Shown: one piece after another, positions 30,530 to 34,511 of the stretch
Layout of the letters: each line of letters opens with the position of its first letter
Numbering within the stretch: the first letter of the stretch is position 1
NCBI GenBank assembly: GCA_007131245.1
Contig: SLQX01000018.1
Span: 1 to 53,264, forward strand
DNA from: Bacteroidales bacterium
GTDB taxonomy: Bacteria; Bacteroidota; Bacteroidia; Bacteroidales; UBA7960
Direction of reading: 5' to 3'
Length of the DNA: 53,264 nucleotides
Notes under the pieces: generated by a model
Databases searched by the model: none
Told to the model about the DNA's origin: nothing
Seen by the model: the letters and a program-made list of their open reading frames with translations, nothing else
Made by a program: the position numbers and the translations under genes

Positions 30530-30560
30530 TTGGGATTTGAAATCATTTATCGTATTTTTG
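30530..30560 (+). promoter_or_regulatory. Bacteroidetes-type -33/-7 promoter upstream of the arsF-like gene
   Basis: TTG (30530-30532), 20-nt gap, TATTTTTG (30553-30560), about 50 bp upstream of the ATG at 30613. Confidence 0.6.
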
Positions 30561-30612
30561 CGCTGATTAATTAAGAAAAAAATATTCAATATCAGTAAAA
30601 AAACACAAAATC

Positions 30613-31056
30613 ATGAAAAAACCATTTATTACATTTTTAGCATTATGCATGCTTTTTTTAGCGCTGCCAGCCACCGAGAATCATGTGGAAGCCTCCAGCC
30701 AGGGAGCAGAGGAGGTGGATGAGAAAGTAGTTGAAGTATACTATTTTCATCGCAACCGCAGATGCGGACCTTGCAGAAGGATAGAAAATTTTACAAAAAA
30801 AACCATGGAAACCTTCTTTCAAGAAGAAATGGAAACCGGCACGGTGGTTTTTCATATCATGAATGTTCAGCAGGATGAAAATCAGGAGGTAGCTAAAAAA
30901 TTCAATGCTGTGAGCACCGCCCTGCATATCAATACCATCAATGGCCAAGAGGAAGAATCCACGAATCTAACCCGTTTTGCGTACCGCAACGTTAGAAATG
31001 AGGAAGGATTTTTAACAGGTCTTAAAGATCATGTAACCAGCGCACTAAACGACTAA
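30613..31056 (+). CDS. arsF: Thioredoxin-like ArsF-family protein (nitrophenyl compound nitroreductase subunit ArsF-like)
   Basis: 147 aa exported protein. VVEVYYFHRNRRCGPCRRIENFTKKTMETFFQEEMETGTVVFHIMNVQQDENQEVAKKFN. Next to ArsE-like and ArsG-like genes. Confidence 0.7.
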   Translation: MKKPFITFLALCMLFLALPATENHVEASSQGAEEVDEKVVEVYYFHRNRRCGPCRRIENFTKKTMETFFQEEMETGTVVFHIMNVQQDENQEVAKKFNAVSTALHINTINGQEEESTNLTRFAYRNVRNEEGFLTGLKDHVTSALND

Positions 31057-31208: not shown

Positions 31209-31667
31209 ATGAAATCTACAACAGGTCTTATTATTTTGGCAATAAGCATCATGTTTACGGCCAGTCAAACTGCATTCTCGCAAGAAAAAGAGCATGCTAC
31301 ATTGAAATTTGAAAAAGAAGCAGAGCAACTGGGCACTATCTACACAGATGAACTGGAACCTGTGGAGATGGAAATTGAATTCACCAACCAGGGGAAGGAG
31401 CCACTGGTCATTTCCCACGTCAGGGGTTGCTGTGGCACGCGTATTAAAGATTGGACGAAAAAACCCATTATGGAAGGAGAAACCGGTACAATAAAGATAG
31501 AATTCAGGCTCGCACCCCGCCCTCATAATATCCGCCGCACCGTAAGTGTTGTCTCCAATGATCCGGACGGTATGAAAGTTTTCAGGATACGGGGAGAAGT
31601 AGCCGAACGCTCTGATGAACCATTTGGAGCTAATCACCAGGGTGCGATGGCCCCAAAAGCAGATTAA
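31209..31667 (+). CDS. DUF1573 domain-containing exported protein
   Basis: 152 aa. Signal peptide, then LGTIYTDELEPVEMEIEFTNQGKEPLVISHVRGCCGTRIKDWTKKPIMEGETGTIKIEFR...SNDPDGMKVFRIRGEV. Confidence 0.88.
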   Translation: MKSTTGLIILAISIMFTASQTAFSQEKEHATLKFEKEAEQLGTIYTDELEPVEMEIEFTNQGKEPLVISHVRGCCGTRIKDWTKKPIMEGETGTIKIEFRLAPRPHNIRRTVSVVSNDPDGMKVFRIRGEVAERSDEPFGANHQGAMAPKAD

Positions 31668-31710: not shown

Positions 31711-32019
31711 ATGAACAGCACAGTAATTCAGAAACCCACCTATTCACAGGAAGACATACAACTGGCCAAATACATTAAAGCCCTGGCTCATCCTGCACGC
31801 ATTGCTATTATGAAACTGCTTACCCACCGTGATACCTGCATTTGCAATGATATTGTACAGGAGTTGCCCCTTGCCCAGTCCACCGTTTCACAACACCTTA
31901 AAGAACTCAAATCAGCCGGGCTTATCCAGGGAAACATTACTCCGCCAAGGGTAAAATACTGCATCAACCGGGATAACTGGAGCCAGGCAAAAACTTTAAT
32001 TGAAAAATTTCTGCAATAG
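31711..32019 (+). CDS. arsR: ArsR/SmtB-family metalloregulatory repressor
   Basis: ORF open from 31615; MNSTVIQKPTYSQEDIQLAKYIKALAHPARIAIMKLLTHRDTCICNDIVQELPLAQSTVSQHLKELKSAGLIQGN is a classic ArsR winged helix with CxC (TCICND) near the metalloid-binding helix. Confidence 0.93.
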   Translation: MNSTVIQKPTYSQEDIQLAKYIKALAHPARIAIMKLLTHRDTCICNDIVQELPLAQSTVSQHLKELKSAGLIQGNITPPRVKYCINRDNWSQAKTLIEKFLQ

Positions 32020-32020
32020 G

Positions 32021-32061
32021 TTTGGTATTTAAGACAATCATCGTAATTTTGCGATGAATGT
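32021..32061 (+). promoter_or_regulatory. Promoter (TTTG-N19-TAATTTTG) with 28-bp palindrome centred on the -7 box; candidate ArsR operator
   Basis: TTTG 32021-32024, TAATTTTG 32044-32051. ACAATCATCG (32034-32043) and CGATGAATGT (32052-32061) are inverted repeats with 9/10 matches flanking the -7 element. Confidence 0.7.
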
Positions 32062-32080
32062 TTACACCAAATACTACATT

Positions 32081-32323
32081 ATGGAAATTAAAGTACTGGG
32101 AACCGGATGCGCTTCCTGCAAAACCCTGGAAAAAACAACCCGTGAACTGGTTGAAGAATTAAAACTCACCGCTTCTGTTGTCAAAGAAGAGGACATCATG
32201 AACATTATGGCTTATGGTGTGATGCGCACGCCTGGGTTGGTAGTGGATGAAAAAGTTGTGCTCAGCGGAAGAGTTCCATCCAAAAATGAATTAAAAGAAA
32301 TTCTGCAAAAGTCAGCAGGCTAA
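32081..32323 (+). CDS. Small thioredoxin-family protein (redox-active disulfide protein 2 / ArsE-like)
   Basis: Start MEIKVLGTGCASCKTLEKTTRELVEELKLTASVVKEEDIMNIMAYGVMRTPGLVVDEKVVLSGRVPSKNELKEIL. CASC motif and MRTPGLVVD cis-Pro motif. Confidence 0.88.
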   Translation: MEIKVLGTGCASCKTLEKTTRELVEELKLTASVVKEEDIMNIMAYGVMRTPGLVVDEKVVLSGRVPSKNELKEILQKSAG

Positions 32324-32417: not shown

Positions 32418-33125
32418 ATGGAGTATTTGTACGAATTACTGGACGGCAGCAATGCCCCCATAATATCGGCTTTTATATTGGGGATTATGACAGCCATCAG
32501 CCCTTGCCCCCTTGCTACCAATATCACAGCCACTGCTTATATAAGTAAAGACCTGAGCAACAAGCATAGTATTTTTTACAACGGTCTTTATTACACCCTG
32601 GGCAGAATTATCAGCTACACTTTACTGGGCATTATCATTTTTTTCGGAGCAAGCAGCTTTGAAATGGGCGATTGGTTTTCAACCTACGGAGAGCTGATGG
32701 TAGGGCCTTTATTAATTATCATTGGTATATTTATGCTTGATGTCATCCGAATAAGTTTGCCCTGGGGTCAAGGAGGAGGTCTTACAGAGCGCCTGGCAGG
32801 CAAAACCAAAAAAGGGAGTTCATGGGGAGCATTATTGCTTGGGATGGTCTTTGCCCTTGCGTTTTGTCCATATAGCGGAGTGCTCTATTTTGGCATGCTC
32901 ATACCCCTGACTGTAGCCAACACCCAGGGTCTTATTCTGCCACCCGTCTTTGCCCTGGCCACAGGTTTACCCGTTATAATAATTGCCTGGCTCCTGGCAT
33001 TTAGTTTAAAAGGAGTGGGCAGCTTTTACAATAAGCTACGAACTTTTGAATATTGGTTTCGCAGAGTAGTTGCGGTTATTTTTATACTGGTGGGTGGGTA
33101 CTACATCGTCACTGTTTATTTTTAA
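32418..33125 (+). CDS. arsG: ArsG-family / CcdA-like membrane permease (aromatic aminobenzylarsenical efflux-like)
   Basis: 235 aa, about 6 TM. ISPCPLATNITATAYISKDL and ALAFCPYSGVLYFGMLIPL cysteine motifs. Directly follows the ArsE-like gene. Confidence 0.75.
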   Translation: MEYLYELLDGSNAPIISAFILGIMTAISPCPLATNITATAYISKDLSNKHSIFYNGLYYTLGRIISYTLLGIIIFFGASSFEMGDWFSTYGELMVGPLLIIIGIFMLDVIRISLPWGQGGGLTERLAGKTKKGSSWGALLLGMVFALAFCPYSGVLYFGMLIPLTVANTQGLILPPVFALATGLPVIIIAWLLAFSLKGVGSFYNKLRTFEYWFRRVVAVIFILVGGYYIVTVYF

Positions 33126-33158: not shown

Positions 33159-34457
33159 ATGGAAACCAAAAAGGAGTTGAAAATTTTATTCTGGCTTGTA
33201 GCCTTTTTTCTATTTGCATACTTTCTTCCCGTTGAAAAGGAAACTTTCATGGGAGCCATTTACGAAGGACTTTTCCTTGTAAAATGGTATGCCCGGGAAC
33301 ATGTGTTGCTTTGTCTTATACCTGCCTTTTTCATTGCAGGGGTGATCGCCGTTTTTGTAAGCCAGGGTGCAGTCATCAAATATTTTGGAGCCCAGGCCAC
33401 CAAATGGAAATCATACCTGGTTGCATCGGTGTCAGGAACCATTCTGGCCGTTTGCTCATGTACCATTTTGCCTTTGTTTTCGGGTATTCACAAAAGGGGC
33501 GCAGGCCTTGGGCCTGCCATTGCATTTCTTTACTCCGGACCGGCCATCAACATACTTGCTATTATACTCACAGCACGAATCCTGGGGTTTGAGCTAGGGA
33601 TAGCCCGCATTATCGGGGCTGTTGTGTTTGCCATTATAATCGGCCTGCTCATGGCCTTTTTCTTCCGCAAAGAAGAAAAAGAAAGGGCAGAAGAGGCCAT
33701 GAATTTCCCATCTCCACCGGAGTCAAGACCCATGTGGCAAACATCTTTCCACTTTTTCGTGTTGGTTTTTATTCTCATTTTTGCAAACTGGGGCAAACCT
33801 GATGTGGAAGAGGGTTTCTGGTTCTGGCTTTGGAGTAATAAGTGGACCATAACCGCTATTTTTGGTATCCTGTTTACCGGGTCCTTGCTCTTTATCCTTA
33901 AACTTAAGAAACTGTATGTGGGTCTATCGGTTGCAGGAGTTATTGCCACTGCCATAATCTTTCCGGGCAACCCGCTGGCACCCTTTGTTGTGGCCTTTAT
34001 AGCCCTGAGCATCATCACCGGGTTAACACCGGGAGAACCCAGGGAGTGGCTGTGGTCAACATGGGGGTTTACCAAGCAGATTGTGCCCTTGTTGTTTGCC
34101 GGTGTAATGGTGGCTGGTTTTCTACTGGGTTCACCAGAAAGTGGCGAAGGGATTATCCCAAACCAGTGGGTGGCATCTCTGGTGGGGGGAAATTCGGTCA
34201 CGGCCAACCTGTTCGCTTCTGTTTTTGGAGCATTCATGTATTTTGCCACCCTCACAGAAGTACCCATTATTCAAGGGCTACTTAGCAGCGGAATGGGTAA
34301 AGGACCTGCCCTGGCGCTATTACTTGCCGGACCAGCACTTTCACTACCAAATATGTTGGTGATACACAGCGTTATAGGCACCAAAAAAACAGCTGTTTTT
34401 ATTTCCTTGGTGGTGGTAATGGCCACCATTAGCGGATTGATTTACGGAGCCATTTAA
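33159..34457 (+). CDS. Permease, COG0701 family (ArsP/YraQ-like)
   Basis: 432 aa multi-TM. VSGTILAVCSCTILPLFSGIHKRGAGLGPAIAFLYSGPAINILAIILTARILGFELGIAR, TLTEVPIIQGLLSSGMGKGPALALLLAGPALSLPNMLVI. Confidence 0.88.
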   Translation: METKKELKILFWLVAFFLFAYFLPVEKETFMGAIYEGLFLVKWYAREHVLLCLIPAFFIAGVIAVFVSQGAVIKYFGAQATKWKSYLVASVSGTILAVCSCTILPLFSGIHKRGAGLGPAIAFLYSGPAINILAIILTARILGFELGIARIIGAVVFAIIIGLLMAFFFRKEEKERAEEAMNFPSPPESRPMWQTSFHFFVLVFILIFANWGKPDVEEGFWFWLWSNKWTITAIFGILFTGSLLFILKLKKLYVGLSVAGVIATAIIFPGNPLAPFVVAFIALSIITGLTPGEPREWLWSTWGFTKQIVPLLFAGVMVAGFLLGSPESGEGIIPNQWVASLVGGNSVTANLFASVFGAFMYFATLTEVPIIQGLLSSGMGKGPALALLLAGPALSLPNMLVIHSVIGTKKTAVFISLVVVMATISGLIYGAI

Positions 34458-34479
34458 AAGATTTAAGCGAACAAAAAAA

Positions 34480-34511
34480 ATACCCGGCCATCTTGTCAGC
34501 CGGATATTTTT
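34480..34511 (+). terminator. Intrinsic terminator after the ars-like cluster
   Basis: ATACCCGGC ... GCCGGATAT (8/9 complementary) followed by TTTTT. Confidence 0.65.

Follow-up and report, generated by a model that had tools for sequence, protein, structure and literature searches.

In the window, i.e., the whole 53,264-nt stretch of DNA that was analyzed, an ars locus was found on the plus strand. The first gene of the locus, arsF (30613–31056), encodes a nitroreductase subunit of the ArsF family (NF040494, 98.5 bits; cut-off 60). It is followed by a gene for a DUF1573 protein (31209–31667, PF07610), for which a weak match to the NCBIfam OS_HP2 family (seleno)protein profile was also noticed (35 bits against a cut-off of 100). 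The arsR gene (31711–32019) encodes a repressor assigned to the winged HTH ArsR/SmtB family by both PF01022 (45.5 bits; cut-off 22) and NF033788 (62.8 bits; cut-off 55), with the recognition helix A55-Q56-STVSQHL and cysteines at positions 43, 45 and 84. Downstream of arsR are located arsE (32081–32323), encoding an MTH895/ArsE thioredoxin-like protein (TIGR00412, 114.8 bits; cut-off 62), arsG (32418–33125), encoding an efflux permease of the ArsG family (NF040495, 304.9 bits; cut-off 200), and a gene for an ArsP_1 family permease (33159–34457, PF03773). The conserved start of arsE is the ATG at 32081 and not the ATG at 32054 further upstream. The latter opens an 89-aa ORF beginning within the operator described below, and ORF callers may place the arsE start there. 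A terminator-like hairpin lies 3' of the permease gene (34476–34511); it was scored on the minus strand, its plus-strand stem is visible in the sequence, and it probably marks the end of the ars unit. Homologues of ArsE, ArsF and ArsG are all present at the locus, as in the arsEFG organoarsenical resistance genes named in the title of Chen, Zhang and Rosen (2019, cited in PMC9144182). The order arsF-DUF1573-arsR-arsE-arsG-arsP-like, split by a predicted internal operator-promoter, differs from arsEFG as that title gives it.

The candidate ArsR operator is an imperfect 10-8-10 palindrome 3' of arsR (plus strand, 32034–32061). Its left arm ACAATCATCG (32034–32043) and right arm CGATGAATGT (32052–32061) agree at nine of ten positions, and the entire 8-bp spacer TAATTTTG (32044–32051) is a predicted -7 element matching the TAnnTTTG consensus of Bacteroidota as cited in PMC7366714. 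A predicted -33 element, TTTG (32021–32024), was located 19 nt 5' of the -7 box and starts at the second base after the arsR stop codon (TAG, ending at 32019). The first-pass annotation had described a 28-bp palindrome centered on the -7 box of a promoter beginning directly past arsR, and the coordinates bore out this geometry in every part. The conserved core of the palindrome, ATCG-TAATTTTG-CGAT (32040–32055), has the ATCG-N8-CGAT form of ArArsR-type operators, and both sequence features of a Bacteroidota housekeeping promoter (-7 TAnnTTTG and -33 TTTG) were present and conserved.

As many as nine inverted repeats with an 8-bp spacer and at least 9 of 10 matching arm positions were counted in the window, and 66 when spacers of 0–12 bp were allowed, so the palindrome by itself is not unusual. 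Such a count speaks for a palindrome that surrounds an ordinary promoter by chance and bears no relation to ArsR. The TTTG-N17-21-TAnnTTTG pair occurred once per strand in 53 kb and, unlike the palindrome alone, is unusual within the window. The 12-bp core CGTAnnTTTGCG had seven matches in the 3.88-Mb genome, four of them ars promoters, and the reversed-pattern control had nine. Judged from sequence comparison, the case for an operator is carried by conservation and not by the palindrome itself.

Conservation of the arms in orthologous loci, on which the earlier reading had been staked, was indeed found. All same-genus orthologues (L005–L009) carry AATCATCG-TAnnTTTG-CGATGA (ATCATCG-TAnnTTTG-CGATGA) unchanged with an invariant TTTG 19 nt upstream, the adjacent bases being variable, and the operator arms of the relatives form perfect palindromes of 8–10 bp. 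Remoter members of the family retain ATCG-TAnnTTT[GA]-CGAT 3' of arsR, some immediately before arsE and some farther off. A scan for inverted repeats around arsR that presupposed no motif found spacers of 8 bp most often (88 vs. 39 in shuffled sequences). A published footprint provides further support. ArArsR of Arsenicibacter rosenii, like the window protein a Bacteroidota ArsR, was shown by DNase I footprinting and EMSA to bind TTTTATCGTAATATTGCGATCACAATC, covering ATCGTAATATTGCGAT (PMC11868830). This site is likewise ATCG-N8-CGAT, and ATCGTAATATTGCGAT is one base off the window 16-mer (15 of 16 core bases). The two sites differ in placement, as that of A. rosenii lies upstream of arsR, over the -35 element according to the authors, whereas that of the window lies after arsR, over the -7 box and before arsE. 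Moreover, one promoter was described for the A. rosenii arsRMC genes (PMC11868830), whereas an internal promoter is predicted before arsE in the window.

The specificity residue of ArsR-type regulators offered another line of evidence. In NolR and RexT it stands at the start of helix alpha4, as in the window ArsR, although both proteins respond to other signals and have half-site spacings of N9 and N15 (PMC8960804). In NolR, contacts to A or T bases are made by Gln56; RexT has Lys50 at the equivalent position and binds ATTCG/CGAAT half-sites (PMC8960804). In a phmmer comparison, the window ArsR and NolR align over residues 14–88 of both proteins, an alignment that, if ungapped, would place Gln56 on Gln56. 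A survey covered 112 ArsR loci (a few contigs being counted under two handles), taken from the family of the window and from named records of Bacteroidota and Ignavibacteria. A site with the 4-8-4 layout was present in 105 of them. The half-site was ATCG for all 58 proteins with Gln at position 56, and TTCG for all 35 with Lys, 10 of 11 with Arg and the only one with Leu; the exceptional Arg locus (SRTTVN helix) has GACG/CGTC. Conversely, perfect ATCG sites all belonged to Q-type ArsR proteins, and TTCG sites to K, R or L types.

The linkage was also seen in the opposite direction. A motif-first search of class genomes gave 38 matches to ATCG...CGAT against 7 for the control, and an ArsR gene was found at 23 of 30 motif-first loci. 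Wherever the helix could be read, the predicted residue was present (Q 21/21, K 3/3, R 2/2). At the remaining seven loci (L047, L048, L049, L059, L068, L069 and L070), ATCGTAnnTTTGCGAT sites had no recognized ArsR nearby; flanks were similar within the pairs L047/L048 and L069/L070. With these data, a chance palindrome became scarcely credible and was rejected, as it is contradicted by the phylum-wide conservation, the helix linkage and the motif-first recovery of ArsR genes, as well as by the footprint of the relative. Proof of the helix code from phylogenetically independent events was sought on an ArsR tree built with the helix columns left out. About four switches of the code were counted on the best tree, with only one forced by well-supported branches, which was too few for such a proof, and residue 56 is therefore inseparable from residues linked to it. 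As far as sequences can tell, the helix code is consistent throughout but founded on few independent events.

Three ArsR paralogues of the window's genome have the TAnnTTTG in common but each differ in the half-sites that surround it. One of the two paralogues besides the window ArsR (L002/L036, G000:C194) has a TTTCG/CGAAA operator around the -7 box in an arsR-rhodanese-like-DUF1573-like arrangement, and the other (L003/L034, G000:C52) has a GACG/CGTC operator, also around the -7 box, in an arsD-like-arsR-arsC-like arrangement. A search of 293 class genomes turned up GACG-type operators in none but the genome of the window, which leaves the third code class with one example. The existence of further paralogues raises the alternative that the palindrome after arsR serves another regulator of the cell. 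This is improbable, as each of the two closest paralogues has its own operator, in which the half-sites differ from ATCG, and as ATCG pairs with the Gln56 type, to which the local ArsR belongs.

An RNA element was considered as well. The palindrome could form a hairpin in the arsR-arsE transcript, acting as a terminator or attenuator, and its folding energy (-12.0 kcal/mol in the window, reaching -15.5 in L005) is in line with such a role. However, many post-arsR sites fold poorly (e.g., -1.8 for L095 and -1.6 for L116), no T-run terminator was found on the plus strand of the window, and an Rfam search gave no match. In addition, other loci carry the motif upstream of arsR at the -7 box, where it is not transcribed, and the half-sites track the recognition helix of the protein. 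This reading, which we regard as very improbable, was rejected on the fold energies, the missing plus-strand terminator and the lack of an Rfam match.

The best explanation is that the adjacent ArsR uses the palindrome as its operator, and that the spacer doubles as the -7 box of a promoter internal to the locus, serving arsE-arsG-permease. We assign this reading a probability of about 0.88 based on the sequence, the conservation, the linkage of half-site and helix residue, and the footprint of the related ArsR on an almost identical 16 bp. The site would represent a new form of a known operator type.

The first-pass annotation had also split the locus into two transcription units, arsF-DUF1573-arsR and a repressible arsE-arsG-permease unit. 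The internal promoter for the second unit was supported by the analysis, whereas a clean separation was not. The arsR-arsE interval contained no plus-strand terminator, so the two units probably overlap by read-through. Furthermore, a candidate degenerate ArsR operator, ATCG-TATTTTTG-CGCT (plus strand, 30549–30564), was identified on the arsF promoter with TATTTTTG (30553–30560) as its predicted -7 element. Because of this operator copy, both units look ArsR-controlled, and the arsF-DUF1573-arsR unit probably is. In six same-genus loci the left half-site of this operator is intact, and the right one is CG[CGT]T, never CGAT. The alteration in all six loci suggests a weaker operator, which would leave arsF-DUF1573-arsR leaky and arsE-arsG-permease tightly shut. 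The first unit is thus probably under leakier ArsR control than the second.

In the proposed mechanism, the two ATCG half-sites, separated by 8 bp, would each receive one recognition helix of an ArsR dimer. Since the spacer is the -7 element, the bound protein would hide it and block initiation at the internal promoter. A trivalent arsenical would bind the cysteines of ArsR, causing its departure from DNA and the expression of the efflux genes. The weaker operator on the arsF promoter would keep arsF-DUF1573-arsR leakier, so that some repressor would remain present.

The cysteine pattern bears on the nature of the inducer. The window ArsR differs from the type 1 As(III) repressor R773 (Cys32, Cys34 and Cys37), as it has Cys43-x-Cys45 with Ile48 at the Cys37 position (TCICNDI), the third cysteine being missing there. 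ArArsR senses As(III) via Cys41, Cys80 and Cys82 (PMC11868830), and this set is also incomplete in the window ArsR. By spacing, Cys43 and Cys84 correspond to Cys41 and Cys82 of ArArsR, Lys82 takes the Cys80 position and Cys45 is additional. In ArArsR, the C80S mutation abolished the response to As(III) and left that to MAs(III) in place (PMC11868830), and Lys82 in place of Cys80 may reflect a preference of the window ArsR for trivalent organoarsenicals. The arsEFG and ArsP-like genes adjoining arsR make a trivalent organoarsenical a reasonable inducer, and such compounds would fit the gene content and the cysteine pattern no less well than As(III) does.

An operator after arsR was not confined to the window's family. 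At 56 of 112 loci, a 4-8-4 site of matching type lay no more than 70 nt past the arsR stop, compared with 0.2 in shuffles and none for the reversed motif. Such operators mostly begin 14–27 nt beyond the stop. The -7 box was inside the operator at 65 of 67 upstream sites and at 19 of 60 post-arsR sites. Twelve of the 19 also have a -33 TTG, nearly all of them from the window's family. The other 41 post-arsR operators, from many families, have no promoter in the spacer, and extra TAnnTTTG boxes nearby were as frequent as by chance (4 vs. 3.8). Promoterless operators 14–27 nt after the stop were noticed, among others, at L029, L032, L083, L095, L101, L105 and L116. The genes behind promoterless operators are arsE-like, arsM-like or arsF-like (arsM and arsF were identified by eye, using the protein starts). 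Since most of the phylum lacks a promoter at the post-arsR operator, the position of an operator alone does not imply one.

These sites raise a competing explanation, in which the post-arsR operator acts mainly as a roadblock, with bound ArsR halting polymerase that arrives from the arsF promoter, and with only a minor contribution of the internal promoter. On sequence, the 41 promoterless sites of other lineages agree with the definition of a pure roadblock (a repressor site that lies 3' of a promoter and has none of its own), and in many families the operator is kept at its distance from the stop even though a promoter is missing. The stronger induction of arsM (351-fold) and arsC (297-fold) than of arsR (158-fold) in A. 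rosenii (PMC11868830) fits a roadblock without being a test of it. The same applies to E. coli bioreporters, in which a second ArsR site engineered downstream of arsR lowers the background (Stocker 2003, as described in PMC3918153). The window site itself has both -7 and -33 boxes, which lie 19 nt apart, are conserved among the closest relatives and would be needless for a pure roadblock. A mainly roadblocking operator in the window is possible but less likely than not; the two roles can coexist.

With the operator-promoter reading retained for the window, its family appears from the sequences to be a variant in which the post-arsR operator was turned into a full -33/-7 promoter. Elsewhere, the post-arsR operator may be a natural roadblock, by analogy with the engineered E. 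coli arsenic biosensors. As described in PMC3918153, the second operator of those bioreporters likewise stands between arsR and the output gene; it was engineered there and is natural here, and, unlike the engineered site, that of the window's family carries a promoter. The open-access literature that was searched contained no earlier description of this motif throughout Bacteroidota and none of a naturally occurring second ArsR site 3' of arsR, most subscription journals being outside the search.

The post-arsR pattern is a more interesting lead than the single window operator. We give even odds to a broader proposal, in which a natural, phylum-wide second ArsR operator, fixed 14–27 nt past the arsR stop and usually promoterless, would be an arsenical-relieved transcription roadblock uncoupling repressor supply from effector output. 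In this proposal the window's family would have made it an operator-promoter, and a half-site code, read through residue 56 of the helix, would keep paralogous ArsR proteins apart. For Bacteroidota, the data suggest a rule of a 4-8-4 ArsR site, in which the -7 box can fill the spacer and one helix residue allows the half-site to be predicted. Insulated arsenical-inducible promoters for Bacteroidota could be designed from this rule, and the conserved post-arsR operator raises the question of whether the roadblock introduced by biosensor engineers is already at work in nature.
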